Made by a program: the position numbers and the translations under genes. Positions 30,601-50,694 of a stretch of 64,000 nucleotides of DNA are shown here, one piece after another. Numbering within the stretch: the first letter of the stretch is position 1; every line of letters begins with the position of its first letter. Below the pieces are notes generated by a model, which searched no databases, was not told the origin of the DNA, and saw only the letters and a list, made by a program, of their open reading frames with translations. This DNA is from Thermaerobacter sp. FW80 (GTDB lineage Bacteria; Bacillota; Sulfobacillia; Thermaerobacterales; Thermaerobacteraceae), in the NCBI RefSeq assembly GCF_004634385.1, contig NZ_CP037895.1:310001-374000 (forward strand), read 5' to 3'.

Positions 30601-31211
30601 GAACGGTCACCTCCTGTTCCTGCCGACCCGTGCCTTCCGGTCCAGTCCGCAAGGACCCGCGCAGGCGCGCCTGGCTACCCCGCGGGGGTGATCCGCCGCG
30701 GCTTTGCGCTCGATGGGTTCGCCATCGGTTCGGCGATGAGGCGATGAACGGCTTGGCGGGGAGACCCGGCCAACGAGCCCCGCACGGAACGGGCGCCTCG
30801 CACCCGCCCCGGCGCACGGGTCCCTCTCGCCCGGCATGACGAACCGGCCGCATCTGCGCACGCGATCCGCCGCGAGCCGTCGTCCCCCGTCGCGCGGCTT
30901 CGGTCACGACGGGGTGGACCGCCACCGGTTGCGCGACAGGCCGTAGCCGGACATGCCACGCCCGGTCGGCTCGCATGTCGACCCTCTGCCGGTTGGCCCC
31001 GTCCAGGTGGCCGGTTCGTCGGCCGGTTCGGGATGCGATGTGCGCGCTGCGATCGACCCAGCGGGTCGATCCGTTCGGGACGACCTCGCGGCCGCCCACG
31101 CCTGGCGCACCGGTCCCCGGGACGCGCCGGGAACCGGCCGCCGACGAATCTCCGTCAATGACCGCTACAGGAAGGCTCGTGAACGTGACCGGCCTGTCCA
31201 CGACCGGTCTG
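30601..31211. other. Long leader without a supported gene
   Basis: About 600 bp between the sugar operon and the promoter at 31250-31279. All frames give Arg/Gly/Pro-rich translations with no recognisable domain. Two motif elements occur (30838, 31011); the second is followed at once by a partial direct copy (GGCCGGTTCGGG). Confidence 0.5.
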
Positions 31212-31238
31212 TTAGCAGACGAGCGCGACGAGTGCTAA
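31212..31238 (-). promoter_or_regulatory. CIRCE-like HrcA operator
   Basis: On the minus strand TTAGCACTC-N9-GTCTGCTAA. The CIRCE consensus is TTAGCACTC-N9-GAGTGCTAA, so the left arm is perfect, the spacing exact, and the right arm differs at two bases. It begins about 5 bp after the predicted start of transcription of the adjoining promoter, the usual place for HrcA repression. Confidence 0.7.
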
Positions 31239-31249
31239 CAAGCAATTGG

Positions 31250-31279
31250 AATATATCCTCAAGCTAAACGGGATGTCAA
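31250..31279 (-). promoter_or_regulatory. Strong σA-type promoter reading towards the sugar operon
   Basis: On the minus strand TTGACA (31279-31274), 17-18 bp, then ATATAT/TATATT (31256-31250). The surrounding 100 bp is notably AT-rich for this window. It reads leftwards into the 600-bp leader and then the sugar ABC operon. Confidence 0.75.
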
Positions 31280-31443
31280 GTTAAGGCACTCCCTGGCGGA
31301 TCGCGATCCGGGCCGTGACGGGGGACGAGCCGCGCCACGCATTGGCGTCGGGCTCGATCATCTGCGTTGGGCCCGAACGGAAAGGCGGCGCGGTGGTGTC
31401 AATCGGGTGATGACCCGATGCCGCCGGCCGGCCCCGTCACCGT

Positions 31444-31788
31444 ATGATGGTCGTCGTGGTGCCTACGGACAAGCAACCCAACCATCGCAGCGACCGTCGC
31501 AGCCCCGGCCACAAACCCCCGAGTTGGGCAGCGGCTGAATTGCGCAGGCAGATCCGGCACCAGCTCCGGCGATTGAAGGCCCTGCGCGATGCCATGGGTG
31601 CCGAAGGAGACCGCGAGCTCCTGGCCGCGATTCACGATGAGCTCGAGGTCCTGGCTCGTCTGTTGCGCACCCTGGAGATCTTGGAAGCGTTGGAGGGAAA
31701 ACGTGGAGGCAAGGAGCCAGGGGACGAACCGGCCGCTGGCGGTCCGCCCCCGCACGCCGACGACGGTTCCGACCAACGGGCGGATTGA
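31444..31788 (+). CDS. Small helical hypothetical protein
   Basis: A 114-residue product, polar at both ends with a strongly helical middle: AAELRRQIRHQLRRLKALRD and LLAAIHDELEVLARLLRTLE, possibly a coiled coil or helical hairpin. I do not recognise it. The start is uncertain (ATG 31444 or 31447; no good ribosome site). Its 3' part overlaps the start of the Spo0E-like gene in another frame, which suggests coupling if both are real. Confidence 0.45.
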   Translation: MMVVVVPTDKQPNHRSDRRSPGHKPPSWAAAELRRQIRHQLRRLKALRDAMGAEGDRELLAAIHDELEVLARLLRTLEILEALEGKRGGKEPGDEPAAGGPPPHADDGSDQRAD

Positions 31789-32044
31789 GGGCGGGCAGAA
31801 TGAGGGCGATGGCCGTTCCGATGCCGGCCACCGCGCGAGCACCGGCCACCGGGGGGACGGGACACCCCCGTGGGGTCAGCTGGCGCGGGAGGTCGAGGAC
31901 CTGCGGCGCGCCCTCATGAGCGCCGTCCAAGCGCCCACCGATCTCCGCCGGGAAGACGTCCTGGCCCTCAGCCAACGGCTCGACGATCTGATCGTCCGCG
32001 CCCAGCAGGCCCTGGCCGAACGGCGTCCTGTCCGCCAAGGGTGA
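31703..32044 (+). CDS. Spo0E-like aspartyl-phosphate phosphatase family protein
   Basis: A 113-residue product. Its C-terminal 45 residues match the Spo0E family: LAREVEDLRRALMSAV (helix 1), then LRREDVLALSQRLDDLIVRA with the SxxLD signature whose Asp is needed for phosphatase activity. Spo0E proteins dephosphorylate Spo0A~P or related response regulators and delay sporulation. GTG 31703 has GGAGGG 6 bases upstream; the N-terminal 55 residues are Gly/Thr/Arg-rich and may be untranslated if a later start is used. The motif element at 31723 lies in this part. Confidence 0.72.
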   Translation: MEARSQGTNRPLAVRPRTPTTVPTNGRIEGGQNEGDGRSDAGHRASTGHRGDGTPPWGQLAREVEDLRRALMSAVQAPTDLRREDVLALSQRLDDLIVRAQQALAERRPVRQG

Positions 32045-32163
32045 CGGCCGACGGCCCCAGGCCTCCTTCCGTTCGCGTTCCGCCCATCGCCTTCCGGGGG
32101 CCACGCGGCCCGGCAGGGACATGGCGAGGATCGCCGTATTCTACCCACTGTGAGATGAGAGGC

Positions 32164-32256
32164 CGCGGGGGGAGTCCGGGTCAACCGGGCTGAGAGGGCG
32201 ACTGATCGGCGTCGCCGACCCCGATCACCGGATCCGGGTCATGCCGGCGTCGGGAG
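32164..32256 (+). ncRNA. TPP riboswitch of tenA, variant core
   Basis: CTGAGAGGGCG followed by GACCCCGATCACCGGATCC, GGGTCATGCCGGCG and TCGGGAG has the order and spacing of a thi box. It departs from consensus at positions usually well kept: CCGGA for CCTGA, TCATGCC for TAATGCC and TCGGGA for TAGGGA. Its position 120 bp before tenA supports the assignment. Confidence 0.78.
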
Positions 32257-32375
32257 CGCGGTCCAAGGACCGGGCCGTTGGATGCGGCCGGGCATGCCTC
32301 CTGCCGCCGAGCTGCTCGGCGGCCTCTTTCGTTCTCCGCGGTGCTTCCACGCCACGGACGGGGGAGGGAGACGCC

Positions 32376-33062
32376 ATGCCGGCGAGCAGGGGCACGGCCG
32401 AGCCGTTTCACCAGTGGCTCGACGCCCAGACGCGTACCCTTTGGGAGGCCATCTTCCAGCTCCCGTTTCTCCAGGAGCTGGCCGCCGGAACGCTGGCCAG
32501 GGATCGTTTCGCCTACTTCCTCGCCCAAGACGTCCTCTACCTCGAGCAATTTGCCAAGGTGCTGGCCCGCGGGGCCACCCTGGCAGACACCCCGAAGACG
32601 CGCGAGATGTTCCTCCGCCACGCGGCCAACGTCGCCCGGGTGGAAGAACGGCTGCACGCGGAACTGGCGTCGCGTCTCGGGTTGGACTGGGACGCTGTGC
32701 GTCAGAAGGAGCCCGCGCCGGTCACCGTCGCTTACACCGATCACCTGCTCCGAGTCGCCCACACGGGCGGACTCAGCGAGCTGGTCGCGGCGGTGCTGCC
32801 CTGCTACTGGGTCTATGCCCGGGTCGGGGAGCGCCTGGCGAATCGGCTGCCGGAGGACGAGATCTACCGGCGCTGGATCCTGACCTACGCCGATCGCGAT
32901 TTCCACCGCAGCGTCGACGAACAACTGAGGCTGATCGATCGGCTTGCGACGGCCGCCGGCAGCAATGAACGGGAGCGCATGGAGCGGTGGTTCGCCCGCA
33001 GTCTCCGTTACGAGTGGATGTTCTGGGACCAGGCCTACCGCGATCTTGCCTGGCCGGTCTGA
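32376..33062 (+). CDS. tenA: TenA-family aminopyrimidine aminohydrolase / thiaminase II
   Basis: Salvages degraded thiamine by releasing HMP from amino-HMP or formyl-HMP. The 228-residue all-helical protein has TLWEAIFQLPFLQELAAGTL, FAYFLAQDVLYLEQFAKVLA (with the Asp that holds the pyrimidine), the active-site LPCYWVYARVGERLA with its Cys, WILTYADRDFHRSVDEQ, and the C-terminal RYEWMFWDQAYRD. ATG 32376 follows GGGGAGGGAG. It is controlled by its own TPP riboswitch and is 9 kb from the thiD operon. Confidence 0.95.
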   Translation: MPASRGTAEPFHQWLDAQTRTLWEAIFQLPFLQELAAGTLARDRFAYFLAQDVLYLEQFAKVLARGATLADTPKTREMFLRHAANVARVEERLHAELASRLGLDWDAVRQKEPAPVTVAYTDHLLRVAHTGGLSELVAAVLPCYWVYARVGERLANRLPEDEIYRRWILTYADRDFHRSVDEQLRLIDRLATAAGSNERERMERWFARSLRYEWMFWDQAYRDLAWPV

Positions 33063-33092: not shown

Positions 33093-33461
33093 GTGACCGC
33101 GTTCTGGGCCGCCTTGCGCTTTCTGACGGTCCTGCCTGCGCCCGGCCGGCGCCCCTTGCAGGCACCCGCGCTGGGTCGAGCGGTGGGGTACTTCCCCCTG
33201 GTCGGCGTGATCCTCGGAGGACTCCTCGCAGCCGCCAACGCCGCCGTGACAGAGGTCATCCCCCCCGATGTCCGGGCCGTCCTCGTGGTCGGACTGGGAC
33301 TCGCGTTGACCGGCGGCCTCCACTTCGACGGGTGGTTGGACACGTGCGACGGCTTGTTCGGAGGACACACCCCGGAGGAACGCCTCCGCATCATGCGGGA
33401 TGAGCACGTGGGCGCCTTCGGCGTCGCTGGAGGCGGCCTCCTCCTCCTCGCGAAATCGTAG
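33093..33461 (+). pseudogene. cobS: Cobalamin synthase (CobS), N-terminal fragment cut by an inserted cassette
   Basis: The frame begins MTAFWAALRFLTVLPAP and has GRAVGYFPLVGVILGGLLAA, the metal-binding HFDGWLDTCDGLFGG and RLRIMRDEHVGAFGVAGGG. This is the first ~120 of about 250 residues of adenosylcobinamide-GDP ribazoletransferase. After LLLLAK the frame hits a stop and base composition drops abruptly, so the rest of the gene was replaced. The catalytic region is present but half the membrane helices are missing; activity is unlikely. Confidence 0.88.
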
Positions 33462-33570
33462 ATCGTTGTGGCATGTTGCTAGGTTTCAGGTACAATTCCC
33501 ATAGCGCTCCAACCTACCGTCACGGATACAGGCGTTGTCAATGATGCCAAGCAAAGGAGGGCCAACCCCG

Positions 33571-34512
33571 GTGGGGAGAGTTCCTATCGTTGATACTTTG
33601 CAACGTGTTCCCGGCGGTATGATGCTGATCCCTCTGTTAGCCGGTTCGGTAGTGCGAACTTTCTGGCCTGGTTTCCTTGAGCTTGGATCCTTCACCACGG
33701 CGCTGTTTAAAGACGGAGCGCTGCCCCTCATCGCCCTGCTTATCCTCGCCACCGGCGCTCAAATCAATGTCCGACAGAGCGGGGCTGTACTAGCCAAGAC
33801 GGGCGTCTTGTTGCTGGCCAAGACGGTATTGCCAGCTCTGCTCGTCATTCTTTATGGTTATCTGTTCGGACGAGACGGTATCCTCGGCATTTCGCTTCTG
33901 GCGGCAATGATTGCGTTCATCAACTCCAACGGTGGGCTGTGGCTGGCATTGGCGACCCAGTACGGGGATGACGAGGACCGTGGAGCGTACATCGCAAGTG
34001 CCCTCAACGACGGTCCCTTCTTCACCCTGCTATTCCTGGGCTTGAGTGGGCTTGGGGCCATTCCGTTCGAGTACATTGTGGCTGCCATCCTTCCGTTTCT
34101 TATCGGGTTCATCCTGGGTAACTTGGATGCAAAGTTTGCGGAGATGATGAAGCCGACTGCCGCTATTACAGTACCGTTTTTCGCCTTTGCCCTGGGCGCC
34201 GGCATCGACCTCCGGTCGCTGGCGGTTGGCGGCGTCACAGGGTTGGTGCTGGGCCTTCTAGTCGCGTTTATAACGGGTGCGCTGGGATACTGGGCTTACC
34301 GGTACCTGCTGCGCGAGCGTAGCGCGGTGGGCTTCGCTGTTGGCACCACGGCAGGAAACTCCGTAGCCACCCCAGCAATCGTGGCCCAGGCGGATCCAAG
34401 CTTCACCCCCTTCGTCTCGGTCGCAACGGCGCAGGTGGCGGTTTCGGTGTTGGTGACGGCCGTCGTGACCCCGCTCATCACCCACTACCTGCACCGTCGG
34501 CTACAGAGCTGA
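33571..34512 (+). CDS. kdgT: 2-keto-3-deoxygluconate permease family transporter
   Basis: A 313-residue KdgT-family proton symporter with about ten membrane segments: QRVPGGMMLIPLLAGSVVRT, LELGSFTTALFKDGALPLIA, LLILATGAQINVRQSG, AMIAFINSNGGLWLALATQY and FAVGTTAGNSVATPAIVAQA are family blocks. GTG 33571 is chosen because AAAGGAGGG lies 9 bases upstream and the product then starts just before the conserved PGGMM. With the next two genes it probably imports a C4 acid sugar such as threonate or erythronate rather than ketodeoxygluconate. Codon use and GC content are visibly lower than in the flanks. Confidence 0.92.
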   Translation: MGRVPIVDTLQRVPGGMMLIPLLAGSVVRTFWPGFLELGSFTTALFKDGALPLIALLILATGAQINVRQSGAVLAKTGVLLLAKTVLPALLVILYGYLFGRDGILGISLLAAMIAFINSNGGLWLALATQYGDDEDRGAYIASALNDGPFFTLLFLGLSGLGAIPFEYIVAAILPFLIGFILGNLDAKFAEMMKPTAAITVPFFAFALGAGIDLRSLAVGGVTGLVLGLLVAFITGALGYWAYRYLLRERSAVGFAVGTTAGNSVATPAIVAQADPSFTPFVSVATAQVAVSVLVTAVVTPLITHYLHRRLQS

Positions 34513-34552
34513 CGACCCAACAGAGGCTTCAGACTGTGAAGAAGGGGTAGCC

Positions 34553-35908
34553 ATGGAAAAGCCGCTGTACGCTGTCATTGCCGATGATCTAACGGGAGCG
34601 GGCGACACTGGCGTTCAATTTGCCCGCGCTGGGTTGCGCACCCGCGCGTTAATCGGAACCTGGTCGGTACATGCGGTTCAAGGAGCGGACGTCGTTGTTA
34701 TCAATACGGAGAGCCGAGCGCTAGAACCAGAGGAAGCCTATGAACGGATTGCCCGCACCGCCGCGGAGCTCCGAGCAGCCGGCGCGATCCCAATCTATAA
34801 GAAGATTGATTCCACGATGCGGGGACCCGTGGGCGCAGAACTCGACGCACTGCTGGATATGTTCGGACTGGACATGGCTATCGTGTGCCCCGCCTTCCCC
34901 GACAACGGCCGCATCCTGATAGGAGGGTACTTGCTCGTAAGCGGTCAGCCCGTTGCCCGGACAGCCATCGGTCGTGACCCTGTCGCGCCGGTCAGGGAAA
35001 GCCACGTGCCGACGTTGCTCGCCTCTCAAACGCGGCGTTCCGTGCGCCATATCGGCCTGCAGGTTGTCGAAGCAGGGGCCGAACGTTTGTGCACTGCCTT
35101 GGGCGCTGCACGCCAGCCTGGAGGTAGCGTGGTGGTCATCGACGCCGTTAGCGACGGGGACTTGGAGGTTATCGTCGAAGCAGCTTCTATGGTGGAAAGC
35201 GGGTCGTTTGTGACCCATGCCGGCTCCGTTGTAAACGGACGGAAGGGTGGGGTCGTGCTGGTTGGCTCGGCGGGCCTGGCACGCCCGTTGGCTCGTCGTC
35301 TGACGGCCGGTCTTCGGCGGCATCCTGGAACGAGTCGGGAAGCTCGGCGCATTGTGTTGGTGGTGGTCGGGTCGGTAAACCCTGTCTCGCGAGAACAGCT
35401 GGCCTGGCTGACCTCCCAGCAGGACACCCTGGTCGTGCACCTGGACGTAAACGCCGCTCTGCAGGGGGGAGACGCATGGCAGCAGGCAAAGCACTCGGTA
35501 CGGCAAGTGGTCGGGCGGGCTGCGACCGAAGGCCGTGTGTTAGTGTTGACCACCCGCGGTGACCCCGCGGACGTTGAAGCCGCGCGCCGTGCTGGCTCGG
35601 CGCACAGCCTGGGCGCAGTGGAAGTAGCTAGGCGTATTGCCGAAGCACTGGCTGAGGTTGCGGCAGGAGCTCTGGATCGGCTGAAGGTGGCTGGAGTCGT
35701 TCTCACCGGTGGCGACACGGCCCGGGCGCTTCTGGACCGCCTTGGGGCAGCTGGCATCGACCTGATTTCGGAGGTTCAACCCGGCATCCCGGCTGGCACG
35801 CTCAATAGCGGCCGGCGGCCCGGGTTGTGGGTAATAACTAAAGCGGGTGGCTTTGGAAGCCGGGAGGCTTTGGCCCTGGCAGTGGAGTATCTCTTGCGTC
35901 TTCCGTGA
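34553..35908 (+). CDS. dtnK: Four-carbon acid sugar kinase (DUF1537)
   Basis: A 451-residue DUF1537 kinase, of the type shown to phosphorylate D-threonate or D-erythronate. The N-terminal substrate domain starts with YAVIADDLTGAGDTGVQFAR and has IPIYKKIDSTMRGPVGAELD; the C-terminal nucleotide domain has VLTGGDTARALLDRLGAAGI and PGLWVITKAGGFGSREALAL. It follows kdgT by 40 bp, and its stop overlaps the GTG start of the dehydrogenase. The symbol is by analogy; D-threonate is the likeliest substrate because the partner is a PdxA2, but erythronate or other acids are possible. Confidence 0.9.
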   Translation: MEKPLYAVIADDLTGAGDTGVQFARAGLRTRALIGTWSVHAVQGADVVVINTESRALEPEEAYERIARTAAELRAAGAIPIYKKIDSTMRGPVGAELDALLDMFGLDMAIVCPAFPDNGRILIGGYLLVSGQPVARTAIGRDPVAPVRESHVPTLLASQTRRSVRHIGLQVVEAGAERLCTALGAARQPGGSVVVIDAVSDGDLEVIVEAASMVESGSFVTHAGSVVNGRKGGVVLVGSAGLARPLARRLTAGLRRHPGTSREARRIVLVVVGSVNPVSREQLAWLTSQQDTLVVHLDVNAALQGGDAWQQAKHSVRQVVGRAATEGRVLVLTTRGDPADVEAARRAGSAHSLGAVEVARRIAEALAEVAAGALDRLKVAGVVLTGGDTARALLDRLGAAGIDLISEVQPGIPAGTLNSGRRPGLWVITKAGGFGSREALALAVEYLLRLP

Positions 35909-36987
35909 CGACCTTCCACCGCGTGGTGTGGGGGGATGCAACCTTGGTGGACAACCGTCCCATTCTGGCCATTACCATGGGCGATGCGGCCGGCATCGGG
36001 CCTGAGATCATCGTTAAGGCGCTCGCTCGGCCGCAGGTACAGGCATTGTGTCGCCCCCTTGTAATCGGCGACGTCGGTATCATCGAGGACCACCTGCGGT
36101 ACTGGAGGGGTAAGGAGAGTGTTGGGCGACCCTCCATTCATGCCACCGCTACCCCCGAGGAGGCAGAGTGGCGTCCTGAGGTCATTAACGTGTTGCAGCC
36201 GGGGCCTCCATTGGGCCGTATTGAACCCGGGAAGCTGTCCCCGGTGGCTGGCCGAGGAGCCGTGAGTTACGTGAAAGCCGCCGTCTCGCTAGCAAAGGAG
36301 CGGCGGGTACAGGGCATTGTCACTGCACCGCTCAATAAAGAGGCCATGCACCGGGCAGGCTTCCACTATCCTGGCCATACAGAACTCCTGGCCAAGGAGT
36401 TTGGGGTGGCGCGCTACTCGTTGGTGTTGACCGCGCGGGGGTTGTTTGTCTTTCACGTAACCACTCACGTATCGCTGCGCCAGGCAATTGATCTTATCAC
36501 GAAGGAGCGAGTGCTTGATCAGATTCGCCTTGCCCACCTATTGGCTGTTGCGCTAGGACAGGCAAGTGAGGTCATTGCGGTAGCAGGCCTCAACCCCCAC
36601 GCCGGTGAGGGCGGGCTCTTCGGCACTGAGGAGCGGGACATCATCAGGCCAGCCGTGGCGGCAGCTTTGGAGGAGGGCATCCCCGTGGAGGGCCCTCTGC
36701 CGGCGGACGTGGTCTTTCCTAAGGCTGCAGCGGGTAGGTACCGGTTTGTAGTAGCGATGTATCACGACCAGGGACATGCTGTTTTCAAGAGCCTTTTCTT
36801 CAACGAGGGTGTCAATATCACGGTTGGTCTACCCGTGATCCGGACTTCCGTGGACCACGGCACGGCGTTCGACATCGCGGGCAAAGGTGTCGCCCGCGAG
36901 GACAGCCTGGTGCACGCCGTCGAGCTGGCCGCCCGCCTTGGCCCCAAGTGGAAGCAGATCTGGCATCAGGTGCAGTCCCTCGTTTAG
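35905..36987 (+). CDS. pdxA2: PdxA2-type 4-phospho-D-threonate dehydrogenase
   Basis: A 360-residue PdxA-family oxidoreductase. The motifs are [40 protein letters not shown] (metal His), [37 protein letters not shown] (metal His) and [20 protein letters not shown]. With DUF1537 kinases, PdxA2 enzymes oxidise and decarboxylate phospho-threonate to dihydroxyacetone phosphate. True PdxA for vitamin B6 is very similar, but the operon with kdgT and dtnK favours the catabolic role. GTG 35905 overlaps the kinase stop. Confidence 0.9.
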
Positions 36988-37134
36988 GGTGCCGACGGCC
37001 GCTTACGTGAAGTTGGTCCGGTTTCGTGGAGAGGGCTAAGGGCGTACAGCGCCACCCCTTCCTCGTATAGCCATCGCTTTCAGTCCGTGCTAGGGAAGAT
37101 CCGCATAGGCAGTCGGGGTCAAGCGGCCCATCAC

Positions 37135-37690
37135 TAAGGGGCCGTAGAAGAGCCGGACGACCCCGCCCGATGTCGCTCGGCCCGGACAGGGCCAGGCCCT
37201 CGCCCATCTTGTAGTGCCCGGCCTTCTCCAGTTCCACTCCCAGCGCACCGGCCATGGCGCTCATGGGATGACCGGCGTTGGGACTTGCCGTCTTGCCGGC
37301 GTCTTGCCGCCAGATGCCGAAAGCTCCCCGTGCATCCTCGCCGAGGCAGGCGGCCGCGAGTACCAGCAGGGCCGCGGCCAGCCGTGCGGGGATCAGGTTG
37401 GCCGCGTCGTCGGCTCGGGCCGGCGCCTTGCCCAGCCACTCGCGGGTCGGACCACGGTAGCCCAGCATGGCGTCGGCGGTGTTGAGGAACCGGTACGCCA
37501 GCGCCCCGGGTAGGCCCGCGAGGACGAAGTAGAAGAACGGTGCGACCACGCTGTCCGACGCGGTCTCGGCTAGGGACTCGATCGTCGCTGCCGCCATTCG
37601 GGGAGCATCCAAGCCGCGGGTGTCACGGCTCACCAGGTAGTACCACGCCAGGTACCGGGCCTGGTGCACGTCGCCCCACGGCGCGGCCGA
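37135..37690 (-). pseudogene. cbiB: CbiB/CobD adenosylcobinamide-phosphate synthase, internal-C-terminal fragment
   Basis: The minus strand encodes [20 protein letters not shown], then [59 protein letters not shown] and [20 protein letters not shown]. These are the characteristic blocks of CbiB (RDT, E(N/T)xSDxVVAP, NTxDxMxGY, DDxxNxxPAR, SPNAGxP). The N-terminal ~120 residues are absent and the fragment abuts an alkaline phosphatase remnant. It belongs with the cobS fragment to a former cobalamin locus. Confidence 0.85.
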
Positions 37691-37719
37691 TGACGACCCC
37701 GGCAGGACAGGGCTTCTGT

Positions 37720-37885
37720 GCCATGGCGGCGGGGAACGAGTCACACCGCCATGGCGGTGCCCTTGCTGGCCTCCGGTCCAGGCGCCACGGCCGTGCACGG
37801 CCTGCTTGACAACACGGACATCGCCCGCTTGATCGTGCAGGCCTTTGGATGGGACGAACCGGCGCGCCATCGCAGCGCTCGCTGA
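37720..37885 (+). pseudogene. Alkaline phosphatase, C-terminal fragment
   Basis: The frame [20 protein letters not shown] then [18 protein letters not shown] and a stop matches the extreme C-terminus of alkaline phosphatases, including the His-Thr of the zinc-binding HT motif and the DNT-IA end. At most 50 of about 450 residues are left. The upstream border runs directly into the cbiB fragment on the other strand, so the two remnants were joined by a deletion. The motif element at 37853 lies in the tail. Confidence 0.72.
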
Positions 37886-37937: not shown

Positions 37938-38345
37938 GTGAGCCCGTTGGATCGCAGCCAGGATTGGTGGGATGAGGCCCTCGGCGACCTCGCCCACGCC
38001 GAGAGCGACCTGGAACGGGGCTTTTATAATTGGGCCTGCTTTTCGGCCCAACAGGCTGCCGAGAAGGCGGTCAAGGCCGTCTGCCAGAGGTTTGGCGCCG
38101 AGGCGTGGGGTCATTCCGTCCATGCCCTTCTCGACGCCCTCGCGGAGCGGATCCCCGTTCCTGCGGACCTCCGCGATCGTGCCCTGGAGCTCGACAAGGC
38201 GTACATCCCCACGCGATACCCCGATGCCCACCCCACGGGAGCGCCCAGGCGGTTGTACACCGCGTCCGAGGCGAGGAGGATGCTGGGCCATGCGAAAGCC
38301 ATCCTCGACTTCTGTGCGCGTTATCTTCCCGGCCCTGAGTCGTGA
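37938..38345 (+). CDS. HEPN-domain protein, putative toxin of a HEPN/MNT pair
   Basis: A 135-residue HEPN protein: SQDWWDEALGDLAHAESDLE, NWACFSAQQAAEKAVKAVCQ, RFGAEAWGHSVHALLDALAE, and TASEARRMLGHAKAILDFCA. The QQAAEKAVKA helix and GHS(V/L)-LL block are typical of the group. The Arg...His pair of HEPN RNases may be RFGAEAWGH, with 7 residues between, slightly more than the RX4-6H rule. Start GTG 37938, or TTG 37947 with GAGGTGA upstream. It overlaps the nucleotidyltransferase gene by 56 bp. In studied pairs the MNT protein AMPylates and silences the HEPN RNase. Confidence 0.88.
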   Translation: MSPLDRSQDWWDEALGDLAHAESDLERGFYNWACFSAQQAAEKAVKAVCQRFGAEAWGHSVHALLDALAERIPVPADLRDRALELDKAYIPTRYPDAHPTGAPRRLYTASEARRMLGHAKAILDFCARYLPGPES

Positions 38346-38682
38346 AGAGGTCATCCAGCGCATCCGGGACGCGTTGCCCAAGCTCGCGGACCAGCTGCCC
38401 CTTCGGGAGGTCACGCTCTTCGGCTCGTACGCGAGGGGCCGGTTCACGGCGTACAGCGACATCGACCTGCTGGTGATCTACGACGACCCGCCCGTTCCCG
38501 ACGCCTTCCAACGGGTGCGGCGGACCATCCCCCTCCGCGCGCTCGAACCCCACGTCTACACCGTGTCGGAGGCGGCATCCGTCGCATCGGTCCTGGGACG
38601 CATGACGCGGGACGGCGTGGTGCTCCTCGACGCCTCCCGCTCCCGCGCCAGCGGGGGTAGGGTCGAGCGGGCCAGGGTCTGA
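38290..38682 (+). CDS. MNT-type minimal nucleotidyltransferase, putative antitoxin
   Basis: A 130-residue protein with the pol-beta-type signature LFGSYARGRFTAYSDIDLLV (GSxARG then SDID, whose Asp residues bind Mg and ATP). ATG 38290 has AGGAGG 12 bases upstream; GTG 38314 is an alternative. The gene overlaps the HEPN gene at its start and the convergent prpB gene by 127 bp at its end, so the last 42 codons are antisense to the prpB C-terminus. The partner order HEPN then MNT is common for HepT/MntA-like systems. Confidence 0.88.
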   Translation: MRKPSSTSVRVIFPALSREEVIQRIRDALPKLADQLPLREVTLFGSYARGRFTAYSDIDLLVIYDDPPVPDAFQRVRRTIPLRALEPHVYTVSEAASVASVLGRMTRDGVVLLDASRSRASGGRVERARV

Positions 38683-50377: not shown

Positions 50378-50694
50378 GGCGCGGTGTGGGTACTCGGGCT
50401 TCCGGCGCCGCCGTCCCCGGGCGCGGGTCGATGGCCTCGCACACCGGGCATCGATCCCGTGCACCGGTTCCGGCGCGCCGGTCACCGTTGCGGGACAGCG
50501 CCGGACTCTCACCGGTCTTCCCCCAGCGGGCCACCGGCGCCGCGGCCGGACCATGGCCCCGCCGCCGCGGTCGCCCTCGCGGACCGCCTGGGAGGACGGT
50601 CCCCGCCAGGATCCGCTCATCGGGAGCGCGATCCCCCGTCGGGGGCGATGCGCTCCGGTGGCCGCGCCCTGCCCTGTCGGACAGGCACCGCGCC
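50378..50694 (-). ncRNA. Cobalamin riboswitch upstream of nrdAB
   Basis: On the minus strand the core GGGGGAAGACCGGTGAGAGT, CCGGCGCTGTCCCGCAACGG and TGA, and the B12-box-like GGAAGCCCGAGTACCCACAC, occur in order. A perfect 9-bp P1 stem joins GGCGCGGTG (50694-50686) to CACCGCGCC (50386-50378). At 317 nt it is longer than most, through an extra GC-rich arm of over 100 nt between P1 and the core. B12 riboswitches are known to repress class I reductase operons in bacteria that also have a B12-dependent class II enzyme. Confidence 0.88.

Follow-up and report, generated by a model that had tools for sequence, protein, structure and literature searches.

The source study for the acid-sugar catabolic operons built around DUF1537 proteins is reportedly the one that Zhang et al. 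published in PNAS in 2016. The operon type is already known and common across phyla; as described in PMC9997740, PMC10580937 and PMC10079672, it combines the kinase DtnK and the dehydrogenase PdxA2 with the importer KdgT, and a Ralstonia KdgT has been found to import D-threonate in E. coli when the kinase and the dehydrogenase are co-expressed (PMC10079672). An operon of this kind, kdgT-dtnK-pdxA2, occurs in a 64,000-nucleotide stretch of Thermaerobacter sp. FW80 (here called the window; bases 310001–374000 of the 2.95-Mb contig C1, in a genome totalling 3.04 Mb), where it lies between broken copies of two cobalamin (vitamin B12) genes, cobS and cbiB. The gene content, a break in base composition, the absence of these cob genes from congeners, a match to a plasmid and the position of DtnK in a tree together make it likely that the operon was acquired at a chromosomal hot spot, and that the broken cob genes stem from a different, foreign cluster rather than from a resident B12 locus. 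The species was sampled by a single strain and the genus by four genomes, namely the one under study and three congeners, G001, G002 and G003.

All three cassette genes (33535–36987) are intact and co-directional. A preliminary description of this DNA had them following one another with small overlaps, which holds for dtnK and pdxA2 (4 bp), while kdgT and dtnK are separated by a gap of 40 bp. Their guanine-plus-cytosine (GC) content at third codon positions (GC3) is 0.68 for kdgT, 0.66 for dtnK and 0.71 for pdxA2, the three lowest values among the 34 genes called in the window, against a mean of 0.923 (standard deviation 0.034) for the 31 non-cassette genes. Judging from the protein families, KdgT would bring in a four-carbon acid, DtnK would phosphorylate it on C4, and PdxA2 would oxidise and decarboxylate the phosphorylated acid to dihydroxyacetone phosphate. 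The substrate would be a four-carbon sugar acid, most likely D-threonate or D-erythronate. DtnK scores 289.6 bits against the NF047819 D-threonate kinase equivalog (curated cut-off, 450 bits) and PdxA2 scores 306.8 against PRK03371, the D-threonate-4-phosphate dehydrogenase model (cut-off, 583).

Named relatives of the cassette were gathered through a KdgT family scan, a prior DtnK scan of genome contigs having given no named relative. In most of the resulting 80 loci, found in Actinomycetota, Pseudomonadota, Bacillota, Desulfovibrio and Synergistota, dtnK and pdxA2 are present in the same order. The window KdgT is 73–74% identical to the cassette KdgT of Symbiobacterium and Fermentithermobacillaceae. 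In the DtnK tree, the window protein forms a clade with the cassettes of Symbiobacterium, Fermentithermobacillaceae and Desulfovibrio cuneatus (support 99/95), apart from the genus’s own DtnK. The latter belongs to a native dtnK-pdxA2-gntP locus at about 382.5–387.7 kb of the same contig (more narrowly, about 383.6–387.7 kb), some 40 kb from the cassette; its DtnK is present in all four genomes, and pdxA2 and the permease gene were read alongside it in the genome under study, G002 and G003. No orthologue of the window cassette was found in the congeners, where only the native DtnK locus occurs. It is conceivable, if unlikely, that the two unrelated DUF1537–PdxA2 systems, with their KdgT and GntP importers, are retained for different four-carbon acids, the distant window DtnK acting on a substrate that no family member has so far been assigned.

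The cassette sits in an interval bounded by a sugar ATP-binding cassette (ABC) binding-protein gene and a HEPN-MNT/prpB block. In G001, the flanks of this interval are joined by only ~130 bp, while G002 and G003 each carry ~7.6 kb, including an inverted tenA; in G003, the remainder of the stretch that was read holds ribH/ribD-type genes and an ABC-efflux set. Since its content differs in this way among congeners, the interval counts as a variable site. Together with the outlying GC3, the gene order shared across phyla and the DtnK tree, the near-empty site in G001 supports the earlier proposal that a complete importer-kinase-dehydrogenase set was horizontally acquired.

The cob fragments are a different matter. 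As the preliminary description had noted, cobS ends after about 120 residues at the point where composition falls; the stub has 122 residues, and both GC3 and overall GC drop where it stops, the latter from ~0.70 to 0.59–0.63. The best CobS homologue aligns up to about residue 122, which places the break near 33455–33461. The stub is the only CobS match in the whole genome. Its open reading frame (ORF) starts 31 bp after tenA, and because a thiamine pyrophosphate (TPP) riboswitch precedes tenA, the stub stands in a thiamine-regulated unit and not in a cobalamin operon. The cbiB piece, correctly placed on the minus strand by the preliminary description, lies 3.7 kb away on the strand opposite to cobS. 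In related Bacillota with both genes, cbiB and cobS are usually adjacent on one strand, so that at least one rearrangement beyond insertion of the cassette is needed. Neither piece is of full length, as a functional CobS, a membrane enzyme, or a functional CbiB would be. The GC3 of both is 0.84–0.85, compared with 0.77–0.87 for the cob genes of a plasmid in the same assembly and 0.92 for the chromosome.

That plasmid is represented by contig C2 (77,620 bp), whose first 25,945 bases recur at its end with 99.9% identity, and which is thus a circle of ~51.7 kb, very probably a plasmid. On it lie ParB, insertion sequence (IS) elements of the IS256 family in several copies, cobT-cbiB-cobD, and a cobQ interrupted by one such IS256-family element. 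A second, frameshifted cbiB was considered and rejected as a further plasmid copy, being the one gene repeated in the over-run of the contig. The plasmid cluster resembles the window pieces in the nucleotide identity of cbiB (93%) and in GC3; it differs in that its cbiB, cobT and cobD are full length, its cobQ is split, and cobS and cobU are absent. No plasmid relatives of C2 were found in PLSDB, and no kin of cbiB in viral contigs. C2 offers a clean case of a decaying cob cluster carried on a plasmid. Where the preliminary description had allowed for other copies of the broken genes, one exists for cbiB, intact on C2, and no intact cobS was found elsewhere in the genome.

Searches for the CobS, CbiB, CobU and CbiD families, which do recover them in control genomes, found neither CobS nor CbiB in G001–G003, and CobU and CbiD were missing from all four genomes. 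The genome under study has a full cobalamin riboswitch upstream of a BtuF-like binding protein gene and a weak, sub-threshold one at its class I ribonucleotide reductase genes (window 50413–50521, minus strand); G001–G003 likewise show one strong and one weak match each. With the riboswitch context read in the genome under study, the genus as a whole probably imports B12. The cob fragments appear to be parts of a foreign gene set missing from the sister species, so that the genus seems to have given up no capacity for making B12 at this site.

A mobile element was probably also involved. A truncated terminus, probably of an IS3-family element and missed by the preliminary description, begins 20 bp beyond the pdxA2 stop codon and ends where the cbiB fragment starts. 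Over its first ~58 bp it shares 80% identity with the end of a ~1.3-kb IS, and past ~37063 the similarity is weak. This IS, whose transposase has HTH_21 and rve domains, is present in G003 in four near-identical full copies; the window shows one terminus of a partial element. An IS terminus was looked for at the left cassette edge and not found, and between 31290 and 37900 there is no integrase or transposase gene, the IS3 terminus being the only such trace. As to order of events and mechanism, the operon would have landed in the hot spot at which the four genomes of the genus differ, and the cobS and cbiB pieces would be remnants of another foreign cluster, of a kind still present on the ~51.7-kb plasmid; the rearrangements that left them there probably involved the IS3-family element. 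The features of the region are collected in the table.

Table. Features of the cassette region, in window coordinates
Feature	Position	Strand	Evidence or remark
Final left-hand stretch common to the three congeners, marking the left edge of the variable interval	31209–31288		Synteny
TPP riboswitch, tenA leader	32158–32273	+	Rfam RF00059, 54.9 bits
tenA (thiaminase II / TenA)	32376–33062	+	Also in G002 and G003 interval, inverted, 72–74% nucleotide identity
cobS stub, N-terminal part of adenosylcobinamide-GDP ribazoletransferase, 122 aa	33093–33461	+	CobS profile positions 1–105 or 1–115 of 207
AT-richer cassette leader	33462–33534	+	One promoter-like site, GTGGCA-17-TACAAT, at 33468–33496, not clearly above chance
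kdgT, 2-keto-3-deoxygluconate-permease family importer	33535–34512	+	PF03812, E 4e-115
dtnK, DUF1537 four-carbon acid-sugar kinase, SBD_N + NBD_C	34553–35908	+	PF07005, E 2.5e-65; PF17042, E 7.8e-33
pdxA2, PdxA-family 4-phospho-D-threonate/erythronate dehydrogenase	35905–36987	+	TIGR00557, 351.6 bits, above cut-off
Truncated IS3-family terminus, outer end 37008, body rightward	37008–37127		Similarity to G003 IS
cbiB internal fragment, both ends missing	37128–37676	-	CbiB profile positions 109–256 of 282; 93% nucleotide identity to plasmid cbiB
Probable C-terminal tail of alkaline phosphatase gene	37751–37885	+	Weak Pfam match, E 0.041, profile positions 392–420 of 423
HEPN / MNT-type nucleotidyltransferase pair, at the right-hand limit of the variable interval	37938–38682	+	Mostly preserved in G001; reduced to fragments in G002 and G003

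Broken B12 genes next to a newly gained operon invite the idea that one capacity was exchanged for the other, and the preliminary description had read the cassette as lying inside a wrecked cobalamin locus; on this model, its insertion into a resident locus would have removed cobS and cbiB and altered the supply of B12. The cob fragments do flank the cassette on both sides, cobS does stop at the composition change, and the genome holds no further cobS. However, such a trade is quite improbable, given that CobS and CbiB are absent from the congeners, that CobU and CbiD are absent genus-wide, that the cob GC3 fits the plasmid and not the chromosome, that cbiB and cobS are opposed here but are same-strand neighbours in most relatives with both, that cobS follows a tenA under a TPP riboswitch, and that a full cobalamin riboswitch stands ahead of the gene for a BtuF-like binding protein. 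The story would thus be corrected to one in which the B12 pieces are themselves foreign debris. An artificial joining of the cassette or the cob pieces during assembly is very improbable: the 25.9-kb over-run of C2, with cbiB frameshifts in its repeated copy, shows that the assembly is not clean, yet the region is embedded in the 2.95-Mb contig and its flanks run on unbroken, a 7% difference from the plasmid copy means that the cbiB fragment is no mis-joined plasmid read, the IS remnant is diverged, and the congeners vary at exactly the same interval. Relatives with the same gene order and an intact cobS would have pointed to an assembly error; the congeners show no CobS.

The function of the cassette has its own competing explanation, since DUF1537 kinases and PdxA2 of other bacteria can feed 4-hydroxy-L-threonine into vitamin B6 synthesis (Thiaville 2016, as cited in PMC9997740). 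For this cassette, such a role is very improbable. Each of the four genomes has PdxS, so that PdxA2 is not required for the synthesis of pyridoxal phosphate (PLP; vitamin B6); the closest PDB matches of PdxA2 include the D-threonate-4-phosphate dehydrogenase 6e85 (271 bits), compared with 164 bits for the PdxA of 1ps6/1ps7; and the cassette includes a sugar-acid importer. Several points nonetheless weigh against an acquired operon set among foreign cob debris. The closest donor relatives are distant (DtnK ≤47% and PdxA2 ≤59% identity), and since DtnK falls beneath the equivalog cut-off, the assignment of D-threonate or D-erythronate is tentative. The GC3 of tenA (0.84) is atypical as well, blurring the extent of the foreign segment. 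There are no convincing direct repeats and no tRNA at the cassette edges, and no integrase marks the insertion. Comparison within the species is limited to one strain, and the foreign origin of the cob debris, as opposed to an ancestral relic lost in the other species, is argued from composition and the plasmid match and not from a tree.

Other features of the region deserve mention. Between the window and G003, the tenA leader shows 92% identity and the coding part only ~73%; the window tenA has a low GC3 of 0.84 and an inverted orientation, and was possibly replaced. A small ORF at 31589–32044, inside the variable interval, encodes a Spo0E-like sporulation-regulator domain. The alkaline phosphatase tail named in the preliminary description is plausible, if weakly matched. 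A 10-mer, CCGGTTCGTC (often GCCGGTTCGTCC), occurs 23 times in the window where 0.27 copies would be expected; the copies lie on either strand, inside ORFs as well as outside them, at positions including 6835, 21524, 37853 and 59358; its density is 1–4 per 20 kb in the congener stretches examined, with one copy on the 51.7-kb plasmid, and it resembles a DNA-uptake or Chi-like signal. Its absence from the cassette, which had been noted earlier, is real and was rejected as a sign of foreign DNA, being uninformative where ~1 copy is expected in 3.5 kb and copy-free gaps of ~6 kb occur elsewhere in the window.

The locus can finally be set beside the systems that it most resembles. It shares with the DUF1537 acid-sugar operons an importer, a kinase with SBD_N and NBD_C domains, and a PdxA2 dehydrogenase, all transcribed in a single direction, and its gene order is that of Symbiobacterium, Desulfovibrio, Nocardiopsis, Advenella, Promicromonospora and others. 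It differs from them in that its DtnK is only 42–47% identical to the nearest relatives and beneath the equivalog cut-off, and in that it has no attached regulator gene and is set among broken genes. With the native dtnK-pdxA2-gntP locus it shares a chromosome and the kinase and dehydrogenase families; the native DtnK, however, belongs to a separate clade (34% identical to the window DtnK), GntP replaces KdgT, a DeoR-like regulator lies upstream in the congeners, and GC3 is high and normal. The cassette would provide an example of a second, independently acquired acid-sugar operon within one thermophile.

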